Shown: positions 1 through 13,457 of the stretch, piece after piece
Layout: every line of letters begins with the position of its first letter
Position numbering within the stretch: the first letter of the stretch is position 1
Source of the DNA: Flaviflexus salsibiostraticola
Lineage (GTDB): Bacteria; Actinomycetota; Actinomycetes; Actinomycetales; Actinomycetaceae
Assembly: GCF_003952265.1 (NCBI RefSeq)
Contig: NZ_CP034438.1
Coordinates: 620,001-684,000 of the forward strand
DNA: 64,000 nucleotides
Direction: 5' to 3'
The notes under the pieces: generated by a model
Seen by the model: only the letters and a program-made list of their open reading frames with translations
The model's database searches: none
Told to the model about the DNA's origin: nothing
Translations under genes and position numbers: made by a program

Positions 1-348
1 GCGCAGCTGTCGGGTGCCGCCGAGTTCGCCGCCCAGGTGACCCGTGGCGGTGAGGGTGAGCAGGTCGTCGCCGTCACCATCCGCACAGACGGTATCGGGA
101 CGGCGGGGACGGGAAGTCTCCCGACCTCGATCACCACCTCCGGTGCAGTAGCCGCCGCCGATGCGATCGCCGTCCCGGATCTGTCGGCGGTCGATCAGCT
201 GACGTTCTCGGGTGTCGGGCAGGTGTCGAGCGGCACCGCTCCGTCGACGGCCTACGTCGAGGCGCTGAAGGCGTTCTACCAGCACCTCGGTGAACGCACC
301 GGAGCTGGCTCCGTGCTGGTCGTCACCGAACACCTCGAGGGGCGGTGA
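1..348 (+). CDS. 3' end of an unknown element gene
   Basis: An open frame enters at base 1 and stops at 348, giving the last 115 residues of a protein whose start is outside the window. The visible part is rich in Ala, Gly, Thr, Ser and Val, with no Cys, no recognisable motif and no membrane segment. Its tail reads like a small alpha/beta fold. It lies 6 bases before the next gene on the same strand, so it probably belongs to the same element operon. An internal GTG at 37 is possible but unnecessary because the frame is open upstream. I do not recognise the family. Confidence 0.6.
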   Translation, partial: AQLSGAAEFAAQVTRGGEGEQVVAVTIRTDGIGTAGTGSLPTSITTSGAVAAADAIAVPDLSAVDQLTFSGVGQVSSGTAPSTAYVEALKAFYQHLGERTGAGSVLVVTEHLEGR

Positions 349-354
349 CCGGCC

Positions 355-1455
355 ATGTCGCTCTGGAATAGGCCCACACGGGCAGGAACGCCGTCCCCGC
401 CGGACGCCGCCATCGCGCTTCGGGATGAGATGGATCAGACGGCGCTGCAGCTGGTCGACCAGGCACAGGCTGTCTCCCGTCCCGACGCGGTCGGGCACAC
501 CTACAAGGAGCTGGAGCTCGACGAGCGTGCCATCGAACAGGAGCCGCTGTTCGCCGCTGATGGCGAGCATGCCGCACGTGATGCCCGTATCGCAGCGGCG
601 GGCCTTTCACCTCGGGCACAGACCGCTCGTCAGCTGGCGGATGACCATCTGCCGTCTGTCGCGCGGGCTCGCCAGCGCTACGAGGACTGTCTCGAAGCAC
701 TCGGTGCGCATCGGGTTCGTGGTGTGCGCGGCAAGCTCTGGTACGGCGCACGCACCGCACTGCTGCTTACCGGCGACGTCGCTGGCATCTCAGGTGCCGC
801 GATCAGCCTGGGGGAGGTGCCGCTCAACGCCTTCCTGCTTGCCGGCTCGGCGTCGGTGGCGACGATCGCTGCTGGCTTGGTCGGCAAGGACGTCCGAGCT
901 GTCTATCTGCGGAACCGTCGCGCTCGCGTAGCCGAGCACCTCGGCAAGGCGCAGGAGCCGTACCGGCACCTGTTCACGGACGGGCAGGGGTTCTCTCGCA
1001 TCCTGCGCGGCATCGTGTTCGCTTCGGCTGCTGTCGGGCTCGTGGTTGGTATCAGCATCTACGGGCTGCGCACATCTATCGAGGGGTCGCTGTCCGGCCT
1101 GGTGTTCGGTGCGCTGGCGTTGTCCGTAGCGATCGGATCGTTCCTCTCGTCGTTCGCTTACGGCGACGAGGTCGCCGACCAGATCGACGCTGCCCGGCAT
1201 GACTACGAGGTCGAGCTGCGGCGAGCCCGAGCGCTCGCACGTTCTCGGGCTTGGAGCCAGTACGAGCGGCACCAGACCCGTGCCGCGTCGATCCGGGACG
1301 AGTACGCCCAGCGCGGCACGGCTGCCCGAATCGCGGTGACCGGGGCGAAGTGGCGCCTGCTGTCTCGCAATCCCGGGGTCGTAGGCCACGGCCCGGCCGC
1401 GGGACGCACTGAGGCTATCGGGCGCAAGGCACGCACGAGCGGTGATCCCCGATGA
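355..1455 (+). CDS. Membrane protein of unknown function, 366 aa
   Basis: The ATG at 355 follows a GAGGGGCGG stretch. The first 130 residues are charged, helical and probably soluble or coiled-coil. Two hydrophobic blocks follow, at about residues 140-185 and 218-265, each long enough for one or two transmembrane helices. The C-terminal 100 residues are strongly basic and cytoplasm-like. This helical-membrane-helical layout could suit a structural protein of a transfer or surface apparatus, but that is inference. Its stop overlaps the next start in an ATGA quartet (1452-1455), so the two genes are translationally coupled. I do not recognise the family. Confidence 0.65.
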   Translation: MSLWNRPTRAGTPSPPDAAIALRDEMDQTALQLVDQAQAVSRPDAVGHTYKELELDERAIEQEPLFAADGEHAARDARIAAAGLSPRAQTARQLADDHLPSVARARQRYEDCLEALGAHRVRGVRGKLWYGARTALLLTGDVAGISGAAISLGEVPLNAFLLAGSASVATIAAGLVGKDVRAVYLRNRRARVAEHLGKAQEPYRHLFTDGQGFSRILRGIVFASAAVGLVVGISIYGLRTSIEGSLSGLVFGALALSVAIGSFLSSFAYGDEVADQIDAARHDYEVELRRARALARSRAWSQYERHQTRAASIRDEYAQRGTAARIAVTGAKWRLLSRNPGVVGHGPAAGRTEAIGRKARTSGDPR

Positions 1456-2375
1456 GTCGCCTCCTGCCGTCCGCTCTGGCACTCAGCCGGATCGTCGCAC
1501 AGTCCGCTGGCACCGCTCCTCAGCCGGACGGGCTTCAGCTCGGCCACCCCGGGAGCGATCCGAAGCGCCCGGTCATCGTGCTCGTAGCGATGGATCACTC
1601 CTACTCGGTGACCGGCCTCGGCGGTGCCGATCCCATCGGCCGCCGCTTCGAGGAGCTGACCCGGGCCATCCGGCATGTCGCCCGGCATTCGAAGCGGGGA
1701 ACGCACCTCGGACTGCTGAGCTTCGACCAGCCAAGTAGTGGGGACGTACGACCTGGGGCCGTCGGGTCGACCGAGCACCGGAAGGTGCTGGAGCGCAACC
1801 TCCGGGTGCCGCTCGATGCCCGCGGCAGCAGCAGTCTCGGGCCGTCGCTCGCGGTAGCCGAGGAGGTCGCCCGGAACAACCCGACAGCCGAGGTGTGGTT
1901 CGTCCCGATCAGCGACTTCGCACTGACGGATGCCGATCTGCCCGACATCTACGAGCGACTGTCGAGCTTCCCCGGCCACGTCCTCGCCGTCGTACTCGGG
2001 CACCTCGCCCCAGCCGAACTTGCGGGGCCACGGCTGTCGGTCTGCGAGGTCACGACCCAGAGCCCGCCCGGCACCGTCGCGCTGGCGCTCTACGCGGCGC
2101 TCACCGCAGGCCGCCGGAATGCCGACCGCAGCGCAATCGGGACGGTCGTGCGTGCATCAACCAGCGAAAGCGTCGCGAAAACTACAACGCGCATTTCATT
2201 TCCCAAACACACCGCTTCACCTCAAGAACGCGGTGTCCTGCCGCCTGTCCTGCCGCCCGACAGGACTATTGCCAACTATTCGCCCCTCGCGCATAACCAG
2301 TACCCAGCTCGGCCACCAGCCGCATCAATGCGGCGCAGCAATACCAGTTCGGCCCAGCAGAAAGGAATGAAGTAA
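1452..2375 (+). CDS. vWA-like (MIDAS) domain protein, 307 aa
   Basis: Residues about 40-230 look like a von Willebrand factor A fold. A hydrophobic strand leads into D48-x-S50-x-S52, the DxSxS metal-ion site, followed by an SSSLGPS loop near residue 126 and an ISDFALTD segment that could supply the remaining metal ligands. No signal peptide or membrane helix is seen, so it is probably cytosolic. Such domains bind a partner through a divalent metal. It is coupled by ATGA to the preceding membrane-protein gene, suggesting a two-component unit. From about residue 233 the protein turns low-complexity and the DNA more AT-rich, and this tail contains a tandem 12-bp repeat. The tail may be degenerate or regulatory DNA that happens to be open. 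Confidence 0.6.
   Translation: MSRLLPSALALSRIVAQSAGTAPQPDGLQLGHPGSDPKRPVIVLVAMDHSYSVTGLGGADPIGRRFEELTRAIRHVARHSKRGTHLGLLSFDQPSSGDVRPGAVGSTEHRKVLERNLRVPLDARGSSSLGPSLAVAEEVARNNPTAEVWFVPISDFALTDADLPDIYERLSSFPGHVLAVVLGHLAPAELAGPRLSVCEVTTQSPPGTVALALYAALTAGRRNADRSAIGTVVRASTSESVAKTTTRISFPKHTASPQERGVLPPVLPPDRTIANYSPLAHNQYPARPPAASMRRSNTSSAQQKGMK
2234..2266 (+). repeat. Tandem 12-bp repeat with inverted repeat
   Basis: TGTCCTGCCGCC occurs twice in tandem (2234-2245 and 2246-2257). The second copy contributes to an inverted repeat, CCTGTC (2244-2249) with GACAGG (2259-2264). The same 12-mer recurs at 5978-5989 in front of the relaxase-candidate gene. A second shared word, GGAATGAAGT, lies at 2364-2373 and 5952-5961. 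This looks like a protein-binding or transfer-origin signal of the element. Confidence 0.5.
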
Positions 2376-2377
2376 TC

Positions 2378-3079
2378 ATGAACATCAACAAGGAGCCTGT
2401 GGCCGGGCCGGATAATGCGGGCCGGGACTTCGCTCATAAGCGGTACGCCACGGTGGTGATGGATCCGCCGTGGGGTCACCAGCAGAAGGGGCGACTCGGC
2501 GCGCAACGCCACTACGACCTCATGACAACGGAGCGCATCGCGGGCCTCCCGATCCCCGATCTGCTCGAAGAGAATGCCCACGTCTGGATCTGGTGCTTCG
2601 TCGCCTCCCGCATGGATGCCCAGCGCATCGCCGAGGAGCACTGGGAGATGACCTTCCGATCGGAGCTCATCTGGGATAAACGCAAGACCGGACTCGGGAA
2701 TTTTCTCCGCAACAGCCACGAGCATCTGCTGCTGTTCACCCGAGGCAAGGCGCCGGTGCTCTATCGGGGGCAGCGCACCGTGGCGGACTGGCCGGTACAA
2801 GATCACAGCCACAAGCCGGAAGAGGCCATGGCGATGATCCAGCGCGTCAGCCCCGGCCCGTTCCTCGAGTTGTTCAGCAGGCGTCGGTTCCCCGGCTTCG
2901 ACCACTGGGGCAACGAGGTTCCCGGTGGCTCCGACGTCCACATCCCCGGCTACCCGGTGCCGGAGTACTCGGCACGCGCCTACGACCCGACAGCCGGTGA
3001 TCCGCTCTGGCCTGACGGCGTCATCCGGGGCGGCGGGGTCTTCCGTCACGTCCTCCAGATCGAGGAGGGGAAGTCGTGA
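2378..3079 (+). CDS. MT-A70 family DNA adenine-N6 methyltransferase
   Basis: The 233-residue protein has the DPPW catalytic tetrad at residues 29-32, preceded by the strand YATVVM. The order of segments (DPPW, then a helix and the IWCF strand, then the NSHEHLLLFTRG segment) is that of MT-A70 enzymes. In phages and mobile elements these methylate adenine N6 in DNA and are thought to protect against host restriction. No restriction endonuclease is visible beside it, so it is best read as an orphan protective or regulatory methyltransferase. The ATG at 2378 has AAAGGA about 12 bases upstream. The next gene starts inside its stop codon region (3076). Family confidence is high; the role is inferred. 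Confidence 0.9.
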   Translation: MNINKEPVAGPDNAGRDFAHKRYATVVMDPPWGHQQKGRLGAQRHYDLMTTERIAGLPIPDLLEENAHVWIWCFVASRMDAQRIAEEHWEMTFRSELIWDKRKTGLGNFLRNSHEHLLLFTRGKAPVLYRGQRTVADWPVQDHSHKPEEAMAMIQRVSPGPFLELFSRRRFPGFDHWGNEVPGGSDVHIPGYPVPEYSARAYDPTAGDPLWPDGVIRGGGVFRHVLQIEEGKS

Positions 3080-3306
3080 GCTGGCTCAACCCCGACGAGG
3101 GCAAGAAGAACGACGAGAAGGAGAAGGACACCATGAGCCAGCGCTTCTTTACTGCCTGTCTTCTCATTCTCGGCGGCGCTATCGCCCTGACGATCGCCAT
3201 CGAATTTCTCGCTCAAATCTGGGGCTGGCTGGTACTCGGGGTAGTCGTGGCAATCGTGATCTGGATTCTCGCAAGAGTCGCGAAGTCGCGGCAGGACAGG
3301 TGGTGA
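3076..3306 (+). CDS. Small two-helix membrane protein, 76 aa
   Basis: The gene starts GTGA, overlapping the methyltransferase stop. About 19 mostly charged residues (rich in Lys, Glu and Asp) precede two hydrophobic helices at about residues 24-45 and 49-67, and the tail is basic. An internal ATG at 3133, preceded by GAGAAGGA, would give a 57-residue protein of the two helices only; both starts are plausible. Small membrane proteins are common beside coupling ATPases in conjugative elements, so a transfer-complex or entry-exclusion role is possible. There is no sequence signature to prove it. Confidence 0.55.
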   Translation: MSWLNPDEGKKNDEKEKDTMSQRFFTACLLILGGAIALTIAIEFLAQIWGWLVLGVVVAIVIWILARVAKSRQDRW

Positions 3307-3309
3307 AGC

Positions 3310-3468
3310 ATGAGCACGTTTACCTCCGTCAAGTCGTTGTGCTTTTCACAAACACCATTGACTGTCCATCAAAGTGGACGTATAAACAGCGCTTGGAGTG
3401 CTGTCCACCAAAGTGGGCACTCTGGCCGCGTTCGACATCTCACTTCGGGAGGTGTCCGCGATGCCTAA
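3310..3468 (+). CDS. Possible 52-aa ORF across repeat DNA
   Basis: An ATG at 3310, four bases after the previous stop and with AGGTGG nearby, opens a 52-residue frame. It encodes no recognisable motif, and two direct dyad repeats lie inside it. The repeats give the same VHQSG word twice. It may be a leader ORF, or simply non-coding DNA carrying binding sites. I favour the non-coding reading. Confidence 0.2.
   Translation: MSTFTSVKSLCFSQTPLTVHQSGRINSAWSAVHQSGHSGRVRHLTSGGVRDA
3362..3422. repeat. Two direct dyad repeats (GTCCA-N6-TGGAC type), 39-bp period
   Basis: CTGTCCATCAAAGTGGAC (3362-3379) and CTGTCCACCAAAGTGGGC (3401-3418) match at 16 of 18 positions. Each is an inverted repeat: GTCCA/TGGAC in the first and CCAC/GTGG in the second. 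The second is enclosed by GAGTGC (3396-3401) and GCACTC (3417-3422), so it can form a longer bulged hairpin. They precede the coupling-ATPase gene. They are candidate operators or recognition sites for DNA-processing proteins. Confidence 0.5.
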
Positions 3469-3727
3469 GCCCTCCCCACGCCGCAGGCGGAGAAGTAGCA
3501 CGGGATCACTGCCAGTCCGTGTGACCAGCCTGCGCTTCAATCCGGCCGATCCCTCCCGGCTCGCCAATGCCTTGCTGCTGAACGCATCAGAGCAGGCGGC
3601 GCGCCTGGAAGGGAAGCCTCGGCCGTTCCTCGCCGGCATCGACCGGCTGAGCGACATCACCACGAACACCACCAACACGCAACGAAAGGAGCAGACCAAT
3701 GACGATCACCCCGACACCAGCACATAG
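3461..3727 (+). CDS. Small basic protein, 88 aa, unknown
   Basis: The ATG at 3461 has a good ribosome-binding site, GGGAGGTG, seven bases upstream. The first 20 residues are very basic (a run of five arginines), which suggests DNA or membrane contact. The middle is helical with Leu and Ala, and the end is Thr/Asn-rich and hydrophilic. The last 29 bases overlap the start of the coupling-ATPase gene in another frame, consistent with translational coupling. It could be an accessory transfer protein. The family is not recognised. Confidence 0.45.
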   Translation: MPKPSPRRRRRSSTGSLPVRVTSLRFNPADPSRLANALLLNASEQAARLEGKPRPFLAGIDRLSDITTNTTNTQRKEQTNDDHPDTST

Positions 3728-5939
3728 CCCGGTCGCCGATGCCAGCGGACTGGTCTACTCCCGACTGTTTCTGCCAACGCCGCTCGAACTGTCCCAGGCG
3801 GGGCAGTTCCTGCGGCGACTGGCGGCCGAACGCCGCCCCCACCGGATCGTCCTGGAGACCCTCGCCACACCGGGCGGCATCCTCCACCTGATCGGAACAG
3901 AGGCGACGCACATCCACCAGCTCCGCCGCCTGCTCGGGGATCTCATCCCCGGCGTCGTGATGGCCGGTCTGGGCAGTGAGCAGCGCATCGCCCCGGTCTC
4001 GGTCGGACGCATCACGGTGAAGCCAGCCGGCCTGCCGCTCGAGGCATCGGCAGCGGAGCAGGCAACCAGGGCGCTCTACTCGGCGCTCTCGCATCGGCTC
4101 CATACAGGCGAGGCCATCTGCCTCCAGGTCGTGCTCGGCCACGGCATCCATCCAGCGCACACTCCGGCGAAGATCGCCGATCCGAGACCGCTCGGCATCT
4201 GGCAGGCGCTCACGACCGGCACGACACCGGCACCAACCGACCTGCGTTCTCGGATCCGTGACCGCCAGTCCGACTACGGGCTCCAGGTCAGCATCCGAGT
4301 CGCAGCGGCAGGAGATGATCCGGCCAGGCGGCAGCGTTTCATCTTCGAGGTGCTCTCCGCGCTGTCCATCCTGGAAGCGCCCGGCGTGGACGTTGCCGCC
4401 TCCCGCGACAAGCCCGAACGCTTCACCCGCGCTGTGCTTCATCGTCCACTGCGGTTGTCGGTGACGGAGCTGGTCGGTGTTACGGGGTGGCCGGTGGGCG
4501 CCGAGCGTCTGCCGGGCATGCCGCCTGGGCATCCGAAGCTGCTCCGGCTTGACCCGGCAGCGAACTCGACCGAGCGCGTCTTCGCTCGTTCAGCCATCCC
4601 CGGTGACGAACGGCTCGTCGGCATCACCCGAGCCGATTCCGGCATGCATGGGATCGCCGTTGGCCCCACCGGCGTCGGCAAGTCCACCGCCCTGGAGCAC
4701 CTCATCCTCGCCTCCATCCGAGACGGCGATGCCGTCGCCGTGATTGACCCCAAGAGCGAGATGCCCGAGTTTCTGCGCGCCCGGATCCCCCGGGAGCGGT
4801 GGAAGGACATCCGCGAGATCGACGGTGCGGCCGGTGAGCCACTCGGCTTCAACCCGCTCGACGCCACCGGACGCGACCCCGATGTCGTCGCCGATGGCAT
4901 CCTGGCGGTGTTCGCCAAGATCTTCTCAAGCGGCTGGGGCCCTCGAACGGCGGACATTTACTCGGCGTCGCTGCGCACCCTGATCCGTGCCTCCGATCCG
5001 AAAGTTCCGAGCACGTTGCTCGACCTGCCCCGGCTCTGGACGGATGACCGCTACCGACGCCGGCTGGTCGCCGCCGTCCCGAGCGACCCTGGGCTGGCCG
5101 GGTTCTGGGCCTGGTTCGACGCGCTGAAGCCAGCGCAGCGGATGAACGTGCTCGCCGCGCCGATGAACAAGCTCCGCCAGGTGCTCCTCAAGCCCGCGGC
5201 GGTGAAGATCCTCGGGCAGCGCAACCCCGGCTTCCGGCTCCGGGACATCTTCCGGGACCGACTCATCGTCATCCTGCCGACCAATCCGGCGCTCATGGGT
5301 GAGGAGACCGCCGCCCTGATCTCTGCGCTGGCCATCGCGGACGTCTGGCAGGCAGTCCAGGAGCGCGTCACCGACCCGGAGCGCTCGAAGCATCAGGGGC
5401 ATGTGTTCGTCGACGAAGCCGACCGACTCATGCACCTGCCGGTCTCCCTCAGCGACGCACTCGCCCGCAGCCGCTCCATGCACGTGTCGTGGTGGCTGGC
5501 CGTACAGGGGTGGCACCAGATGCCCACCGAGATGCAATCCGCCGCGAAGACCAACGCCCGAACGAAGCTCATCTTCAAGGCCGAGGACGACGACGAAGCG
5601 AAGGTCATCGCCCGCATGGCGCCCGAGCTCGAGCCGATCGATCTACTCAAGCTCGACCGCTTCCAGGCGTATCTGAAGCCGGTTATCCAAGGAGTGACCC
5701 GCGACTGGGCGCTCGTACAGACCCTTCCACCCGAGCCCGCCCAGCACGATCCGGACGAAGTGCTGGCCGCATCCCGTGAAGCGTGCCCACCGTCCGCGCC
5801 GGACAACTACACGCCGCAGGCGACGCCGTCCACCGATGAGGACGAGCAGTCCGCAGCGACGGAGACCGGCGACAGCGAGACGAACACGGAAGGTGCAGCG
5901 GACGAGGTGTTCGGCGTGAAGAAGAGGAGGCGGCAATGA
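3699..5939 (+). CDS. VirD4/TraG-like conjugative coupling ATPase
   Basis: This 746-residue ATPase has Walker A GPTGVGKST at residues 322-330 and Walker B VFVDEAD near residue 571. A VIDPKSEMP segment after Walker A is typical of VirD4/TraD-type proteins, as is the final domain that inspects the substrate. The roughly 300-residue N-terminal region lacks clear membrane helices, unlike classical VirD4, so it may be a soluble T4CP-like form as seen in actinobacterial elements. The last 60 residues are acidic and disordered and end in a basic patch. It would bring the DNA-relaxase complex to the transfer channel. The ATG at 3699 has AAAGGAG upstream. It is followed by an ATGA-coupled small ORF and a relaxase candidate, a logical conjugation pair. 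Confidence 0.85.
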   Translation: MTITPTPAHSPVADASGLVYSRLFLPTPLELSQAGQFLRRLAAERRPHRIVLETLATPGGILHLIGTEATHIHQLRRLLGDLIPGVVMAGLGSEQRIAPVSVGRITVKPAGLPLEASAAEQATRALYSALSHRLHTGEAICLQVVLGHGIHPAHTPAKIADPRPLGIWQALTTGTTPAPTDLRSRIRDRQSDYGLQVSIRVAAAGDDPARRQRFIFEVLSALSILEAPGVDVAASRDKPERFTRAVLHRPLRLSVTELVGVTGWPVGAERLPGMPPGHPKLLRLDPAANSTERVFARSAIPGDERLVGITRADSGMHGIAVGPTGVGKSTALEHLILASIRDGDAVAVIDPKSEMPEFLRARIPRERWKDIREIDGAAGEPLGFNPLDATGRDPDVVADGILAVFAKIFSSGWGPRTADIYSASLRTLIRASDPKVPSTLLDLPRLWTDDRYRRRLVAAVPSDPGLAGFWAWFDALKPAQRMNVLAAPMNKLRQVLLKPAAVKILGQRNPGFRLRDIFRDRLIVILPTNPALMGEETAALISALAIADVWQAVQERVTDPERSKHQGHVFVDEADRLMHLPVSLSDALARSRSMHVSWWLAVQGWHQMPTEMQSAAKTNARTKLIFKAEDDDEAKVIARMAPELEPIDLLKLDRFQAYLKPVIQGVTRDWALVQTLPPEPAQHDPDEVLAASREACPPSAPDNYTPQATPSTDEDEQSAATETGDSETNTEGAADEVFGVKKRRRQ

Positions 5940-6178
5940 GGAGAGAGTTTCGGAATGAAGTGAAGCAGCGTCCTCTCTGTCCTGCCGCCCGTCCTATCGA
6001 CCGTCCAGCCACGTTGCCCATGCACCAGCGATTTCCGCACAGTTCGGGCCGTCTCGGCCCCCTACGGGATGGGACTCACCCCTGTTCCAGGGGTGACGCG
6101 CGGCTCCGCCAGGTCGTCGCCCAGGCCAGCATGATGGCTCGCTTCCGAGCCGCCTTCGGCAGACAGGAGGCGTCATGA
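5936..6178 (+). CDS. Possible 80-aa coupled ORF in candidate oriT region
   Basis: This frame starts in the ATGA of the ATPase stop (5936) and ends in the ATGA of the next gene start (6175-6178), so both ends would be translationally coupled. The product is basic, with Arg, Pro and Cys and no known motif. The DNA beneath it carries the 12-mer TGTCCTGCCGCC (5978-5989), GGAATGAAGT (5952-5961) and a perfect 9-bp hairpin (6076-6096). It may be a small protein, or an open frame over a transfer origin. Confidence 0.3.
   Translation: MRREFRNEVKQRPLCPAARPIDRPATLPMHQRFPHSSGRLGPLRDGTHPCSRGDARLRQVVAQASMMARFRAAFGRQEAS
6076..6096. repeat. Perfect 9-bp hairpin in candidate oriT
   Basis: TCACCCCTG (6076-6084) and CAGGGGTGA (6088-6096) pair perfectly around a TTC loop. 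The hairpin lies between the coupling ATPase and the relaxase candidate, about 80 bases before the latter. No T tract follows, so it does not look like a terminator. Its position is that of an origin of transfer; no nick site can be assigned. Confidence 0.45.
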
Positions 6179-6990
6179 TGCCACCGACCACAGACGCACT
6201 CATAGCGAAGCTGTCGCCTCGGGATCTGGCGATCCTCGACGACCTCCAGCAATTCCGATTGCTCTCGACTCGGCACATCCAGCGACTGCATTTCCCGATC
6301 GCGCCAGATACTCATCGCACCGCAGCAGGCGCGACCAAGGCGACCTGGCGGGTACTGACGCGGCTGGAGCGGGACGGACTCATCTCGCACCTCCAGGGCC
6401 GGATCGGCGGTGTGCGGCAGGGCAGCCAGGGCTACGTCTGGCAGCTCGGCTCCACCGGCGAACGCCTGCAACGGCAGCGACACGGCTACAAGACCCGTCG
6501 CCGCTATACCGCCCCGAGTCAGCCGTTCATGGAGCACCGGGCCGCGGTCAATGACCTCGTCGTCCGGCTCCGCGAGTTGCAACGCGAGGGCGATATCGAG
6601 CGGGTCGAGGTGGAGGCAGAGCCGCAGTGCTGGCGCACCTACACCGGCCCGCACGGCGTCCCGCAGACCCTCAAGCCGGATCTGTATGCCGTGATCACCC
6701 GCGGAGAGTACGAGAACCACTGGTTCATCGAGGTAGACCTCGCCTCCGAGCACCTCCCGCAGATCGTCCGCAAGGCAGGCGTCTACCGTGCACACGCCGC
6801 GACTGGGCTCGAACAGCGGCGCCTCGGCATCTACCCAGCGGTGCTGTGGATCACGACCGATCCGCCCCGGGTTGCCGCCATGCGTGCCGCACTGCGTACC
6901 GATCCGGGACTGCCGAAAGGCATGTTCACCGTCATCGCCGCGAGCGAGGTTGACGCGTTCCTGCGCGGTAGCGAGGGAGGTGCTGGATGA
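6175..6990 (+). CDS. Replic_Relax-family protein, relaxase candidate
   Basis: The 271-residue protein opens with a winged-helix-like part (residues about 10-75, including RDLAILDDLQQFRLLSTRHIQ and a second helix with RLERDGLI). A mixed domain follows with conserved-looking HRAAVNDL, LKPDLYAV and WFIEVDLASE. This layout matches the replication-relaxation family (Pfam Replic_Relax), whose members occur on plasmids and ICEs and are used as a relaxase class in ICE detection. By inference it would bind and process the transfer or replication origin. The start is ATG 6175 or 6178 behind AGGAGG. Overlapping its stop is a 15-codon ORF (6987-7034) that may be a leader. It follows the coupling ATPase, which supports a conjugation role. 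Confidence 0.75.
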   Translation: MMPPTTDALIAKLSPRDLAILDDLQQFRLLSTRHIQRLHFPIAPDTHRTAAGATKATWRVLTRLERDGLISHLQGRIGGVRQGSQGYVWQLGSTGERLQRQRHGYKTRRRYTAPSQPFMEHRAAVNDLVVRLRELQREGDIERVEVEAEPQCWRTYTGPHGVPQTLKPDLYAVITRGEYENHWFIEVDLASEHLPQIVRKAGVYRAHAATGLEQRRLGIYPAVLWITTDPPRVAAMRAALRTDPGLPKGMFTVIAASEVDAFLRGSEGGAG

Positions 6991-7078
6991 GCCTGCCGCA
7001 CCACTTCAACCCGCCACCGAGCGCTCCGGGATAGGGGCAGGGAGGGAGACATCACCTAAACGAAAGGACTACATCACC

Positions 7079-7429
7079 ATGACAATTCATCACGAACGAG
7101 ACCTGCGTCGCATCGCGCGCGGTCTCGACCAGGAATCCCGCATGCGAGAGCACATCGGACGACTCCTCGAGGAAGGCCACCCGATCACCCGGGAGACGGC
7201 TCGTCTCATCGCCGCTTGCATCCACAGCGGAGACGGCTCCGCCCTGGAGCGCTTCGCTGCCTCCGACCAGCTCGACACCGCAGCTGCGCTTGCCGAACTC
7301 ACCTCGATCCGAGTGCCGAGCTACCAGACCGGCTGGGTCATCGCGCTGTGGACGTTCCTCGAAGTGGAATCCGACGTCGAACCGCTCGGCGCCCTTCAAA
7401 CGGCACCCGCTGCACAGGAGGGCTGGTAG
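7079..7429 (+). CDS. Hypothetical helical protein, 116 aa
   Basis: I start this gene at ATG 7079, behind CGAAAGGAC. An open frame extends further upstream, but it would run antisense-like through the relaxase-candidate gene. The product is mainly alpha-helical with alternating charged and hydrophobic residues, and has no Cys, membrane helix or motif that I recognise. It ends directly before the ATG of the next gene (TAG then ATG, 7427-7432), so the pair is likely co-translated. It may be an accessory or regulatory protein of the element. Confidence 0.55.
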   Translation: MTIHHERDLRRIARGLDQESRMREHIGRLLEEGHPITRETARLIAACIHSGDGSALERFAASDQLDTAAALAELTSIRVPSYQTGWVIALWTFLEVESDVEPLGALQTAPAAQEGW

Positions 7430-8212
7430 ATGGAACGCTTCCGAGCACGACACAAGCAGCCAGAGAACGACTACAACGTCGACCTCGACGAAGCCGTGAA
7501 GCCCGAGAACCTCACCGGCGACGGCGAAGTACGAGCCAAAGCCTCCGGTGCAATCGCGGCAGAACTCGTCCGCTATGCCGGCCTCGACGAGAACTCCGCG
7601 CTGGCGCGCTACGCCACGACCGGACGAGGGCGCAACGAGGAACTCCGCGAGGAGTACCTCCTGATCCACCACGACCCCAGCGCACCAGAACCGATCCGTG
7701 AGCTGGTCGCCTGGTTCGCCAGCGGCGTCATCGCTGCTGAGAACACCTACGGACGCTTCCCGCACCGGCCGCACGGCCAGACACCATCCCTCCGCGCGAT
7801 CCTCTGGGAAACCAGCACCGGCGAGGGTAAGGAAGCGATCGCCGTCAACGTGCCGGCCGACACTCCGACGGAGATCATCCGGAGGTTGCGTGACCGCCTC
7901 ACACCGCTGCTGGACGAGCTGGGCGCACCGTTCGAGGCGTTCCTGAAACTGCCCGACGTAAACGCCACGGCCGACAACCTCCAGAAGACGTTCCAGGACT
8001 TCTATATAGGCAGCTTCGACGACCGCGAAGCGCTCGTCCGTGAACTCACCGAATACAACCAATGGGAGGAGGAGATCACCAAGCTCTGCCACCAGCACGG
8101 CATCCCCGAAGGTGTCGTGACGATCGACCTCGACGAGCTGTGGCACTACGTCGAGGGCGGCTGGGACATCATCCCCGGCATCGACGGGCGTCTCCACGTC
8201 TTCATGACGTAG
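7430..8212 (+). CDS. Hypothetical acidic protein, 260 aa, ArdA-like tail?
   Basis: The ATG at 7430 directly follows the previous stop. The protein is acidic overall. Its last 75 residues (YIGSFDDREALVREL, then a helix, then IDLDELWHYVEGGWDII) faintly recall ArdA-type antirestriction proteins, which are acidic DNA mimics with FxEAYVGEF-like motifs. The resemblance is weak, and the first 180 residues are unlike anything I recognise. If real, it would pair with the MT-A70 methyltransferase as a second defence against host restriction. It ends the transfer gene run. About 290 bases without a gene follow. Confidence 0.6.
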   Translation: MERFRARHKQPENDYNVDLDEAVKPENLTGDGEVRAKASGAIAAELVRYAGLDENSALARYATTGRGRNEELREEYLLIHHDPSAPEPIRELVAWFASGVIAAENTYGRFPHRPHGQTPSLRAILWETSTGEGKEAIAVNVPADTPTEIIRRLRDRLTPLLDELGAPFEAFLKLPDVNATADNLQKTFQDFYIGSFDDREALVRELTEYNQWEEEITKLCHQHGIPEGVVTIDLDELWHYVEGGWDIIPGIDGRLHVFMT

Positions 8213-8505
8213 GCCGCCCGGAGCGCCCACCAAACGACGCATATCCGCTGCTTGTTGCGAAAAGCACTACGCCTACGCGGATCGCGTCGTCATCCAATGG
8301 CGATCTGCTCGCTTCGCTACCTGTAGCGGCGTGACAGAGAACGCCTACACCACATCCATCTATTACCAGCACCCATCACTGCATATGCATCTCGGAAGTT
8401 CGCCAACGGCAGACCCGTAAAACGTTGTAGAAAATGCCTTTGACCGGGACTTATTGCGAGCAGCGAGGTAAAATAGCGAGAGTAATGTAAACGGAGATTA
8501 CCGCA
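8213..8505. other. Intergenic regulatory region before the XRE repressor
   Basis: There is no credible gene here. It holds a short palindrome, CGCTAC-CT-GTAGCG (8315-8328), and near the right end three GCGAG words (8456-8460, 8463-8467, 8476-8480) around the -10-like TAAAAT. No terminator is seen for the preceding operon. Confidence 0.5.
8469..8474 (+). promoter_or_regulatory. Candidate -10 box TAAAAT with GCGAG operator words
   Basis: TAAAAT lies 37 bases before the repressor ATG and is flanked by repeated GCGAG words. A TTGACC at 8440-8445 looks like a -35 box but is 23 bases away, which is too far, so the -35 is unresolved. The arrangement suggests an autoregulated promoter. Confidence 0.35.
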
Positions 8506-8895
8506 ATGAACAACGCGGAAGAACCCACAACCAAGCTTGGCGAATTCATCCGCCAGAAGCGCATCGAAAAGGATCTCTCGATCCGGAAGCTCGCCGAGCT
8601 GTCAGGTGTCGTGAACAACACCGTCTGGCGTATCGAGCACGGCGAGATCGTCCAACCTCGACCGGAGATCCTCACCGCGATCGCCCGCTCGCTCAGCATC
8701 CCCGCAGCCGACCTGTACGCACTGGTCGACTACCCGTCGCTCACCAAGCTCCCGTCCTTCGGGGCATACCTCCGCGCTCGCTACCAGGAGCTCACTCCGA
8801 GCCAGGTCGCCCAGCTCGAGGGCTACTTCGCTGCCATAGCGCAGCAGAGCGGCATCAACCTCGACGGGCCAGAGCCCGGCGAAGACGAGTTCTAG
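8506..8895 (+). CDS. XRE-family (Cro/CI-type) transcriptional regulator
   Basis: The 129-residue protein has a helix-turn-helix at about residues 12-66. It begins LGEFIRQKRIEKDLSIRKLAELSGV, written here only as the landmark pair IRKLAELSG and NNTVWRIEHG, and a short helical C-terminal part follows. It is followed by an ImmA-type protease gene, the arrangement of ImmR-ImmA in ICEBs1 and of many prophage switches. There the repressor holds excision and transfer genes off until the protease cleaves it. GGAGA precedes the ATG at 8506. The repeated GCGAG words upstream are candidate autoregulatory operators. Confidence 0.85.
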   Translation: MNNAEEPTTKLGEFIRQKRIEKDLSIRKLAELSGVVNNTVWRIEHGEIVQPRPEILTAIARSLSIPAADLYALVDYPSLTKLPSFGAYLRARYQELTPSQVAQLEGYFAAIAQQSGINLDGPEPGEDEF

Positions 8896-8962
8896 GCAGC
8901 AGACGACGAGACGTATCAGTGATGGCTAACTCCCCGGGTGGGAATGAGAGGAGGAGAACTTC

Positions 8963-9577
8963 ATGACATACCAAATCGGCGAGCTGACTGAGCAGGCGCC
9001 TCGAGTGCCCTCGGGCCTCATCCGGTGCCTGCGCAACCTCGCTCGCGAACACCGCGCCCGCCCGGTCAGCTGGGTTGCCGCCCAGCGCATCGCAGCCCGC
9101 CAAGGCGCACTCGTCGCCCGAGAAGCGGCCATCCGGAACATCACCGTCGATGTCCTCGTCGCCAGCCTCCCGCAGGTGAAAGTCGAAACGGATCGCGAGC
9201 TGCCGGCCTCCGGGCTTGCCGTCTGGAACCGGGACGAACGCACCTGGATCATCCGACTCAACGCCAAGGACGCCCCGGAACGACAGCGCTTCACGCTGCT
9301 GCACGAGTTCAAGCACATCCTTGATCACAACACCAGCGTGCACCTCTACGACCCGCGCTACCTCAGCGGGCACGCCCAAGCCGAGATGGCAGCCGATGGC
9401 TTCGCCTCAGCCGCCCTCATGCCCGCACGCGTCGTTCGTCGCCTCGTCAAACGAGACCGCTGCGACGTCGTCGAACTCGCCCGCAGACTCCGCGTCAGCC
9501 GCGACCGCGCGGCCCTACGGCTGTCCGACCTGAATCTGCAAGCAACGAAAACCACGAGAGGAGGGAACCCATCGTGA
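8963..9577 (+). CDS. ImmA/IrrE-family metallopeptidase
   Basis: The 204-residue protein carries the zinc-protease motif HEFKH at residues 114-118, with a downstream AEMAAD helix that could give the third ligand. This is characteristic of the ImmA/IrrE (COG2856) family. The roughly 60-residue N-terminal extension is basic and helical. It is placed directly after the XRE repressor gene, so the simplest reading is that it cleaves that repressor to induce the element. The ATG at 8963 has a strong AGGAGGAG. The stop overlaps the GTG of the excisionase gene (9574). Confidence 0.85.
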   Translation: MTYQIGELTEQAPRVPSGLIRCLRNLAREHRARPVSWVAAQRIAARQGALVAREAAIRNITVDVLVASLPQVKVETDRELPASGLAVWNRDERTWIIRLNAKDAPERQRFTLLHEFKHILDHNTSVHLYDPRYLSGHAQAEMAADGFASAALMPARVVRRLVKRDRCDVVELARRLRVSRDRAALRLSDLNLQATKTTRGGNPS

Positions 9578-9819
9578 CCATGACCAACATTCACCAACCA
9601 GGCGAACGCGCCGTCCACCACGATGCGCCCCGCCTCTACACGCTCGACGAGGCCGGGCAGGTGCTGCGCGTCAGCAAGTGGACAGTCCAGCGCCTCATCC
9701 AACGCGAACTGCTCGGCTCCGTGAAGGTGGGCGTCCGAACGCTCGTGCCTGCAGAGGACATCGAGCGCTACATCGCCGAGCAAAGCACCGGCCGCATCCG
9801 TGGAGGCTTTCATGGGTAG
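9574..9819 (+). CDS. Excisionase / MerR-like helix-turn-helix protein
   Basis: The 81-residue protein has the excisionase-type winged helix: LYTLDEAGQVLRVSKWTVQR, then a basic wing and VPAEDIERYI near residue 65. Such proteins bend the att DNA and direct the integrase to excise. GTG 9574 overlaps the preceding stop, and ATG 9580 would also fit behind AGGAGGG (9559-9565). The integrase ATG (9812) lies inside its last codons, the classic xis-int overlap. Confidence 0.85.
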   Translation: MTMTNIHQPGERAVHHDAPRLYTLDEAGQVLRVSKWTVQRLIQRELLGSVKVGVRTLVPAEDIERYIAEQSTGRIRGGFHG

Positions 9820-11398
9820 GCGAGCCAACGGCGAAGGAACCCTGGTGCGGCGCGGAGACGGCCGCTGGCAGGCTTCTGGCTACGTGCTTGTCGCCGGTGG
9901 CGGCCGCAAGCGCGTCCACTTCTACGGCACGACTCAGCAGGCCGCACGAGAGAAGCTCCAGGCGGCGCTCGAGCAGGCACGCCGCAACATACCTGTGCCG
10001 GAAACGAGCTGGAGTGTGGGGCGGTACCTCGATTACTGGATGCGTACGGTCGTGCCGATCAAGACCAGGCCACGCACAGCCGAACTGTACGAGTCGACGG
10101 TTCGGCTCTACATCTCGCCGTTCATCGGCAAGAAGCGCCTCGACAAGCTCTCCGTCCAGGACGTCCAGGAACTCATCAACCGCCTCTACGCCGACGGCAA
10201 CTCCGAACGCACCCTGCACCGCGTCCGCACCGTGCTCTCGTCAGCACTCAGCCGGGCCGAGAAGGAGGAACTGGTCTACCGCAACGTCGCCCGCCTGATC
10301 GACCTGCCCAAGTACGAGCGCAAGGCGATCACACCTTGGACGGGCGAGCAGGCCACAGCTTTCCTCGCAGCCTGCGCGGGGCACCGCTGGGAGATCGGCT
10401 ACCACCTGCTGCTCACCTACGGCATGCGCCGCGGCGAGGTACTCGGGCTGCGCTGGAGCGACATCGACTTCGAAGGCGACATCATCCACGTCCGGCAGCA
10501 ACTGCAGCGCATCCACGGCCTGCTGCAAACCGGGCCGGTCAAGACCAGCGCCGGCAAGCGCGACCTGCCGCTCCTGCCGAGCATTCGCGAGATGCTTCTG
10601 CAACTCCGCGAGATGCAGGCGCCCGGAGCCGACGATCTCGTCCTACTCAGCTCGACGGGCACACCAGTCGATCCGAAGAACTTCGTGCGCACCTTCCACG
10701 AGATCCGCGACCGGGCAGGCCTGCCACGTATCACCGTGCACCATACGCGCCATACGGCCGCGACGCTCCTGAAGAACCTCGGCGTCCCTGTACGCGACGT
10801 CCAGCTCATCCTCGGGCACTCGAACATCACGACAACGCAGGAGATCTACCAGCACGGTGACGTCACCGGCCAACGCGAAGCGCTCGAACGAGTCGCCGCA
10901 GCTCTCACGGCACCGCGCCAGACGAGTGCAGCATCGGGCAGCCTGGAGCACGCCGCATCAGGGAATTGTTGTCAGGAATGGTTGTCAAATGGCTGTCATG
11001 CCATCGAATGCGAAGAAGGGCAAGCAAAGAAAAACCGCCGATCAACGGGGGTCGATACGGCGGAATTTCTTGGAGGGCCAGGAGGGGCTCGAACCCTCGA
11101 CACCCTGCTTAAGAGCCTGACTTGTCACCTTTTGGTGGACGCCCCGACCCCTGTTATTCGGAGCATCAGCGAGCAGGCAAAAGCACGAATTATTGGCTCT
11201 GTTGCTGTCAGAAACAGTTGTCAAACCGTCCTGCCGAACGTTCGCCAAAACGAGCGCATGACTCTCCAAGCACAACATCATCTCGCCCTCCGTCGCTCGT
11301 GCAACGCCGCACTCATGACCAAGCTCAGTCGGGCATCGTTCCCGCTATCGCTGTTGCCCACAACGCCTCTGCTGGGCGATCAGAAAGGGGGCAGGTAA
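9812..11398 (+). CDS. Tyrosine site-specific integrase with read-through tail
   Basis: The order of parts is an AP2-like arm-binding domain (residues about 1-50, GRRANGEGTLVRRGDGRW), a SAM-like core-binding domain (about 60-150), and the catalytic domain with R near residue 206 (YGMRRGE), the HTRH box, LGHSN, and the nucleophile Y346 in EIYQH. A normal integrase would end near residue 370. This frame stays open to residue 528, because it crosses a tRNA 3' half from residue 420 (reading GGPGGARTLDTLLKS) and both repeat clusters. The tail is probably an accident of frame. I choose ATG 9812, as MGRRANGEG is a common integrase start and the GTG at 9800 lacks a better site. Confidence 0.9.
   Translation: MGRRANGEGTLVRRGDGRWQASGYVLVAGGGRKRVHFYGTTQQAAREKLQAALEQARRNIPVPETSWSVGRYLDYWMRTVVPIKTRPRTAELYESTVRLYISPFIGKKRLDKLSVQDVQELINRLYADGNSERTLHRVRTVLSSALSRAEKEELVYRNVARLIDLPKYERKAITPWTGEQATAFLAACAGHRWEIGYHLLLTYGMRRGEVLGLRWSDIDFEGDIIHVRQQLQRIHGLLQTGPVKTSAGKRDLPLLPSIREMLLQLREMQAPGADDLVLLSSTGTPVDPKNFVRTFHEIRDRAGLPRITVHHTRHTAATLLKNLGVPVRDVQLILGHSNITTTQEIYQHGDVTGQREALERVAAALTAPRQTSAASGSLEHAASGNCCQEWLSNGCHAIECEEGQAKKNRRSTGVDTAEFLGGPGGARTLDTLLKSLTCHLLVDAPTPVIRSISEQAKARIIGSVAVRNSCQTVLPNVRQNERMTLQAQHHLALRRSCNAALMTKLSRASFPLSLLPTTPLLGDQKGGR
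10968..10998 (+). repeat. Arm-type repeats, integrase side of attP
   Basis: GTTGTCA occurs at 10968-10974 and 10981-10987, and GCTGTCA at 10992-10998. The first two are 13 bp apart and the third 11 bp on. Their position between the integrase catalytic end and the tRNA-like core suggests integrase arm-binding sites. Confidence 0.5.
11026..11063 (-). terminator. Intrinsic terminator behind the tRNA-like core
   Basis: On the minus strand, CCGCCG plus ATC (after a one-base bulge) pairs with GAT plus CGGCGG, followed by TTTTTCTTT. It lies eight bases after the CCA end of the tRNA-like core, where a tRNA terminator belongs. It would end the host tRNA transcript after integration. Confidence 0.65.
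11071..11115 (-). other. tRNA 3' half, core of an attP site
   Basis: Read on the minus strand, this is a perfect tRNA 3' half: loop CTCTTAA, stem GCAGG, five-base variable loop, T arm GAGGG-TTCGAGC-CCCTC, acceptor CTGGCCC, then TCCA. The loop would read anticodon CTT (Lys), though a U discriminator is unusual for Lys. No 5' half exists: the bases at 11116 onward cannot complete the anticodon stem or a D arm. It is a tyrosine-integrase core copy, not a working tRNA gene. Confidence 0.65.
11204..11223 (+). repeat. Arm-type repeats, far side of attP
   Basis: GCTGTCA (11204-11210) and GTTGTCA (11217-11223) are 13 bp apart, the same word and spacing as at 10968-10987. A near copy, CTTGTCA, lies at 11121-11127. 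Repeats on both sides of the core are expected for attP, not for an attL or attR junction. Confidence 0.5.
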
Positions 11399-11567
11399 TG
11401 GATACAGCCATGCAGACGAAGAGTCGTGATGACTTCTCCATTTTACCATTTCGTGCCCTTGTGAACAGAAATTCATGCCATTCCACTGCAGAGCGCCTCG
11501 TCGCTCATCAAACACGCCTGACGCTTCCCGCCACACCGCTCATGCCCGAGAAGAAGGAGCCCCGTCC
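11399..11567. other. Gap between attP region and serine recombinase
   Basis: No gene or RNA is seen. The frame of the serine recombinase is open back to 11475, but the strong start is at 11568. The stretch includes AT-rich DNA at 11430-11470 that could hold the recombinase promoter. Confidence 0.4.

Positions 11568-13457
<1,890 letters not shown>

Follow-up and report, generated by a model that had tools for sequence, protein, structure and literature searches.

Gene content and borders of the element

The window, by which the whole analysed stretch of 64,000 nucleotides of Flaviflexus salsibiostraticola is meant (genome positions 620,001 to 684,000), begins with the right-hand 13.4 kb of an element that is 48,035 bp long and bounded by one pair of serine junctions; its left 34.7 kb (genome 585,348-620,000) lie outside the window. 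The features are listed below, where G450 and G495 denote two Saccharibacteria genomes carrying relatives of the element.

1..13390: right-hand 13.4 kb of the element, delimited by junctions sharing GTCGGGCT
3699..5939, + strand: TraG/TrwB-like conjugation coupling ATPase (Pfam TrwB_AAD_bind, T4SS-DNA_transf, TraG-D_C)
6175..6990, + strand: Replic_Relax (replication-relaxation) protein, relaxase-like (PF13814, E 1.6e-40; 38% identical to the G450 copy)
8506..8895, + strand: HTH regulator (HTH_31/HTH_3; collinear in G450)
8963..9577, + strand: M78/IrrE peptidase (PF06114; collinear in G450 and G495)
9574..9819, + strand: excisionase (TIGR01764 excise, above cut-off; HTH_17)
9812..11398, + strand: tyrosine integrase, 528 aa (PF00589, E 6.5e-27; catalytic part about 9812-10930)
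10968..10998, + strand: integrase-side arm words GTTGTCA, GTTGTCA and GCTGTCA (-103, -90 and -79 from the core)
11071..11115, - strand: attP core, the 3' half of a Saccharibacteria tRNA-Lys(CTT), identical to the 3' half of 15 complete tRNA-Lys genes
11204..11223, + strand: far-side arm words GCTGTCA and GTTGTCA (+89 and +102 from the core)
11475..13418, + strand: large serine integrase (Resolvase and Recombinase domains), 3' end running into tRNA-Pro
13381..13457, - strand: host tRNA-Pro(GGG), target of serine integration (ARAGORN)
13383..13390: right serine junction, GTCGGGCT, common to the left and right junctions and lying in the tRNA-Pro 3' end

An integrase, an excisionase and defined att junctions, the features that mark an ICE, are all present. 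The conjugation genes detected in the element with Pfam are the coupling ATPase (42.5% identical to the G450 copy over 322 aligned positions) and the Replic_Relax protein, and two genes neighbouring these have no match in Pfam and NCBIfam searches. No FtsK/SpoIIIE-type Tra protein, which would mark an actinomycete AICE, was found in this partly annotated element, whose ATPase fits the TrwB/TraG models and no FtsK model.

The serine integrase has the resolvase and recombinase domains of the large serine class and junctions with a short common core, and the C-terminal part of its coding sequence now lies at the opposite end of the element. Searches for repeats did not reveal the left end; it was located through this displaced C-terminal (HTH) part at genome 585,348-585,740, which stands alone and is 36% identical over 136 positions (E 2e-16) to the C-terminus of the G495 serine integrase. 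The left junction reads CACTCTGTCGGGCT followed by CCTGCG, and the right junction, at window position 13383, reads CACCTGGTCGGGCT followed by GACAGG. Because both serine junctions are located in tRNA-Pro, the chromosomal seat of the element is that of the serine system, with the tyrosine attP uncrossed. A preliminary description of this DNA had proposed that the element is held by the serine recombinase at tRNA-Pro, and the two junctions bear this out, the left end mapping to the tRNA-Pro repeat through its copy of GTCGGGCT. From 11116 rightwards the sequence was also considered as host DNA or as a second element, but it belongs to this element as far as the serine junction at 13383-13390.

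The target tRNA-Pro and its chromosomal neighbours are conserved in relatives of the genus. The T stem of the host tRNA-Pro (13384-13405) is unlike that of four genus relatives, whereas the gene finds matches of 99-100% in several further genera of the family; the stem may have been replaced in an earlier exchange. The difference was considered as an element-borne 3' half and this was rejected, since the junctions place it on the host side. In another genome (G005 C4, 66000-66157) a complete second tRNA-Pro stands beside a partial one and what reads, in translation, as the end of a tyrosine integrase, which makes tRNA-Pro(GGG) a possible integration hotspot in the genus. The inverted-repeat likeness of the serine half-sites in the window's genome (no offset) is reached by 559 of 5000 shuffles and is thus no better than theirs.

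The uncrossed tyrosine attachment site

The tyrosine integrase has its catalytic domain, an attP core that is a tRNA 3' half, and arm words on both sides of that core. The core extends from the anticodon loop (CTCTTAA) to CCA, and neither ARAGORN nor Rfam calls a tRNA at 11071-11115. No 5' half is found to the right of the core, in agreement with the preliminary description, which had also read 11071-11115 as an intact, uncrossed attP; the two serine junctions, the gene order shared with the other actinobacterial loci and the crossed relatives found elsewhere support that reading.

GYTGTCA starts at 10968, 10981, 10992, 11204 and 11217, always on the + strand. The 13-bp spacing claimed for both clusters is found between the two outer words on either side (-103/-90 and +89/+102) and fails for the third left word, which follows 11 bp further on. 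It had also been asked whether these words occur all over the element. GYTGTCA as a single word is not rare, with 17 occurrences on both strands of the window and an expectation of 12.0 from shuffled sequence (15 of 100 shuffles have at least 17); its clustering at the core is, since a 256-bp stretch has 5 words where 0.024 would be expected on one strand (Poisson P = 6.5e-11, for a stretch picked post hoc).

The integrase ORF continues through the attP core as far as 11398, and among relatives it is about 528 aa long when uncrossed versus 422-425 aa when crossed. The serine integrase shows the same arrangement: in G495 its ORF runs through an uncrossed attP into the C-terminal HTH part and has 749 aa, versus 647 aa in the crossed form of the window. 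With each reading frame continuing across its own attP, either enzyme exchanges its C-terminus whenever it integrates the element, a feature suggestive of a built-in switch.

The tRNA matched by the core

The preliminary description had expected a matching attB among the tRNA-Lys genes of the host, and this expectation failed. The host tRNA-Lys genes differ from the core, no other host tRNA matches it, and a search of the host genome outside the window returned 21 bases (E 0.66) as its best hit. The host's own tRNA-Lys was therefore excluded as the tyrosine target. Among 396 genomes of the host phylum, the window's own is the only one with the core within 3 mismatches over 41 bases. The matching tRNA genes belong instead to another phylum, the Saccharibacteria, which are epibionts of Actinobacteria.

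The exact 34-mer of the core occurs at 20 loci in 84,980 species genomes. Fifteen of these are complete tRNA-Lys(CTT) genes, identical over 77 bases, nine of them in records named Saccharibacteria, Saccharimonadia or TM7 and six in other bacterial MAGs; this comparison with the tRNA-Lys of all phyla covers the exact core alone among the core variants. The remaining five are lone 3' halves, in Mycolicibacterium wolinskyi, M. sphagni, Mycobacterium sp. BK086, Sinomonas and a Pseudonocardiales MAG. In the family of G450 the core is present within 3 mismatches in 49 of 394 genomes, and exactly in 11. A viral contig collection gave neither a hit to the core nor a confirmed integrase relative, and plasmid and phage collections gave distant matches only, with 41-base stretches 85% alike in Enterococcus plasmids and phages.

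Actinobacterial relatives with an uncrossed core

The order tyrosine integrase, lone core, serine integrase is common to the window and all of the five other actinobacterial loci, the latter selected by exact core match and hence for having the core. Their tyrosine integrases are 42-56% and their serine integrases 35-52% identical to those of the window (that of M. sphagni being seen in a longer stretch). The serine integrase neighbours tRNA-Pro in the window, tRNA-Ala in M. wolinskyi, tRNA-Tyr in M. sphagni, the first of two tandem tRNA-Ala genes in Sinomonas and the tmRNA in the Pseudonocardiales MAG. In BK086 it adjoins a tRNA-Ala-like 3' part at which ARAGORN finds no tRNA, and the tyrosine integrase has an early stop codon; this tRNA-like part stands without a 5' half, and the copy is perhaps decaying. 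The earlier proposal of two integrases with two target tRNA genes is thus upheld by the junctions, by this common order and by the crossed relatives described below.

Far-side words, mostly GCCGTCA, lie at +89 and +102 in M. wolinskyi, M. sphagni and BK086. The Sinomonas element has a far-side word at +89 only and an integrase-side word at -103. Integrase-side words stand at -58/-45 in the three mycobacterial elements and at -56 in G450. Nothing in the Pseudonocardiales element matches the arm word.

Crossed relatives in Saccharibacteria

Crossed forms of the tyrosine site were found in G450 and G495, two genomes of one family group known from assemblies, not from reads. G450 is the MAG BP5.bin99 (0.8 Mb; coverage 2.9 according to its record), one of the six further MAGs with the exact core in a complete tRNA-Lys. 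Organism names are given for three of the nearest 120 proteins listed for its MurB, two being Saccharibacteria and the third Streptomyces. P0235, a MurB with 64% identity to the G450 protein, comes from a contig of 957,675 bases that bears the name Streptomyces caniscabiei and may be a complete epibiont chromosome filed under its host. In G450 an integrase 59% identical to that of the window comes after an intact tRNA-Lys, at which the GC content changes from 0.42-0.53 to 0.61-0.68, and the gene order is that of the window: excisionase, M78, HTH, Replic_Relax and TraG-like ATPase. The contig stops inside the element, so that the visible junction is that on the tRNA-Lys side. No close serine integrase was found in G450, where the best match has 25% identity and contains one stop; of the six Saccharibacteria genomes tested, G495 alone has a close one. 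Integrase homologues at E <= 1e-40 occur in 20 of 394 genomes of the G450/G495 family group, 18 of them just 28-46% identical.

G495, near whose Ddl the names listed are two Saccharibacteria and one Candidatus Angelobacter, shows both ends of an insertion. One contig starts in the element and carries M78, excisionase, integrase (53% identical) and an intact tRNA-Phe. A second leads from chromosomal DNA of low GC (0.51-0.55) across 48 bases that repeat the tRNA-Phe 3' half (47/48 matching) and the far-side arm words to a serine integrase 54% identical to that of the window. The arm words are GCCGTCA, at -103/-90 on the integrase side and +89/+102 on the far side, which are the positions found in the window. 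Its serine attP, which has the perfect 9-bp inverted repeats GGGGGTTTG/CAAACCCCC, is uncrossed. In G537, of the same genus as G495, a single 4,091-bp contig holds parts of both G495 flanks, namely part of a DedA gene from one and tRNA-Phe-SPFH-Ddl-RarA from the other, around a remnant of about 1.4 kb that keeps the arm words of the integrase; a second core copy was not seen on this contig. As both flanks lie on this one contig, they represent one site. In sequence, then, G495 is the mirror image of the window, with the tyrosine site crossed and the serine site uncrossed. With integrases 53-59% identical, the Saccharibacteria copies are, by the same comparison, relatives of the window's element and not the same element.

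A broader sample of integrases

A protein search with the catalytic part of the tyrosine integrase scored 7,999 proteins, 980 of them at E <= 1e-70, and the best 120 of the 980 were examined, a sample not selected by core. As attP lies within the integrase ORF, the protein sequence reveals the core in translated form. With a pattern that selects cores ending in LLK, 101 of the best 120 have an in-frame uncrossed tRNA-Lys core, and 4 carry the same core in another frame. Three are crossed (..LLKRQVL, 422-425 aa), among them G450 as the sole one with a known host, and 12 are without such a core (4 end early, 8 are other or truncated). All organism names given by the sources among these 120 are actinobacterial. 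The 104 ..LLK cores (101 uncrossed and 3 crossed) were compared with the translations of 50 distinct Saccharibacteria tRNA-Lys 3' halves, a subset of those listed, with a stop codon treated as a wildcard: 63 equal one of these translations and 92 are within one residue, whereas actinobacterial tRNA-Lys (n=3) translate to ..LIK or ..RIK. In the T loop many of the listed Saccharibacteria tRNA-Lys have A where attP has G, and A would be a stop in the ORF.

In a tree, the G450 integrase falls in a clade with Pseudonocardiales, Kribbella, Amycolatopsis and Nocardiopsis (support 100/98), the named members of which are Actinobacteria, and the window integrase stands next to Microbacterium. In a second sample not selected by core, an integrase is found at E <= 1e-75 in 6 of 394 genomes of the host class: that of the window, one at the M. 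wolinskyi coordinates, three at an intact host tRNA-Ile, and G1128. The first 800 bases of G1128 C59 hold a lone half-tRNA-like core of another kind, with GCCGTCA on both sides and adjoining an integrase relative. The single-integrase relatives of family f105 are crossed, at an intact host tRNA-Ile, which indicates that the wider integrase family can use host tRNAs.

Proposed mechanism and cargo

The element is very probably, on the sequences compared here, a 48-kb integrative and probably conjugative element having two integration systems, one for an actinobacterium and one for its Saccharibacteria epibiont, and it looks like mobile DNA built for travel between the two. In the actinobacterium the serine integrase would hold the element in a tRNA 3' end, here that of tRNA-Pro, with the tyrosine attP remaining uncrossed. 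The serine integrase and a putative directionality factor could excise it there, and the excised circle would restore the C-terminus of the serine integrase. The coupling ATPase and the Replic_Relax protein might then help the element into an attached Saccharibacterium through host-epibiont contact; alternatively, it might be taken up by a naturally competent epibiont, and natural competence of Saccharibacteria is described in the available part of PMC10633639. In the epibiont the tyrosine integrase would join attP to tRNA-Lys (tRNA-Phe in related elements) and leave the serine attP uncrossed, the exchange falling at about the anticodon loop so that the tRNA is left whole. That one and the same element shuttles between partners, and in what direction and by what route, is our inference.

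Model matches place defence cargo at genome 587,975-599,908, namely Gabija GajA/GajB, a type III restriction-modification system and DolA/DolB. The element also contains two type IV pilin-like genes in the style of Saccharibacteria, at genome 608,019-609,188 and at about 615.9 kb, and the pilin motif is absent from about 96 kb of element flank. One of these pilins is 38% identical to a pilin of the G495 element, and its neighbour gene is 62.5% identical to its counterpart there. A pilin-like gene is also present in the Pseudonocardiales stretch, whereas none occurs in the regions read from the other four actinobacterial elements. Binding of Saccharibacteria to their host involves type IV pili, as stated in the accessible text of PMC12206443, and since such pili act in epibiont-host binding the element may shape the partnership through which it travels. 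That its cargo serves the epibiont is a guess. Alternation between two hosts could tentatively be regarded as the normal life of the element, with one integrase and cargo for each partner, a reading somewhat less likely than not.

Alternative explanations

It might be argued that this is an ordinary actinobacterial element, in which the tyrosine system is a relic acquired from or through Saccharibacteria and the serine integrase alone works today. An uncrossed core at all six actinobacterial loci, that of the window included, fits such a relic, as do the low number of crossed forms (3 of the best 120 of 980 integrases) and the stop in the integrase of BK086, one of the six. A relic should drift, however, and the integrase ORF, excisionase, core and both arm clusters of the window are intact; the far arm words stay at +89/+102 in the window, M. 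wolinskyi, M. sphagni, BK086 and G495, and the cores of integrases 51-97% identical to that of the window still track the variety of Saccharibacteria tRNA-Lys. A relic is consequently considered unlikely.

A different doubt concerns the Saccharibacteria copies, which could be artefacts of binning or assembly, joined at the common 45 bases. They are known as assemblies without reads, at least G450 is a low-coverage MAG, and it lacks a close serine integrase. Against this, the window core equals the tRNA-Lys of nine named Saccharibacteria records independently of G450 and G495, both G495 junctions lie at tRNA-Phe with exact geometry, G537 has the same site with an element scar on one contig, and the protein cluster of the G450 integrase (P0045) counts two contigs, the longest of 116 kb, all of which makes an artefact very improbable. 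It is hardly credible, finally, that two separate elements, tandem or nested, contribute one integrase each, as the different classes of the integrases and the two att sites might suggest: the outer borders are a single pair of serine junctions, the same order recurs in six actinobacterial elements, and the integrases of G495 at opposite ends of one insertion, with matching arms, contradict it. A single element with two integration systems thus remains the preferred interpretation.

Comparison with known systems

Gene flow between Saccharibacteria and Actinobacteria has been suspected, and we know of no dedicated vehicle for it. No description of such a two-integrase, two-phylum element was found in the open-licence literature. 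Phages matched by CRISPR spacers of both Saccharibacteria and Actinobacteria (PMC10746230) are, in the part of that article available, likewise mobile elements inferred to meet both partners; they differ in being inferred from spacers, and that part describes no integrating element with attachment sites for two phyla. The present case provides an example of an integrating element with one recombinase per host phylum. With an attachment site for each partner in one element, the question of gene flow becomes directly testable, and since the core carried by an actinobacterial element points to the epibiont lineage with the fitting tRNA, epibiont-host pairs could be guessed from genomes.

Tyrosine-integrase ICEs and AICEs of Streptomyces and its relatives, of the pSAM2-like kind, reside at tRNA genes, and the window element shares with them an integrase whose attP core is a tRNA 3' half; it differs from them in that the core is foreign and the serine integrase does the holding. 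The f105 relatives (43-47% identical), three at an intact host tRNA-Ile and two with GCCGTCA words before it, differ from the window element in using a tRNA of their own host and in having no serine integrase in the 12-16 kb stretches read. Large serine integrases are known from the phiC31 and Bxb1 kind, with which the element shares the Resolvase and Recombinase domains, a short common crossover sequence and, in G495, an attP with inverted repeats. Unlike that kind, the serine integrase gene adjoins a complete tRNA 3' end in four of the six elements, a tmRNA in one and a tRNA-like piece in one, and its ORF runs through its own attP, so that integration displaces the C-terminal HTH part.
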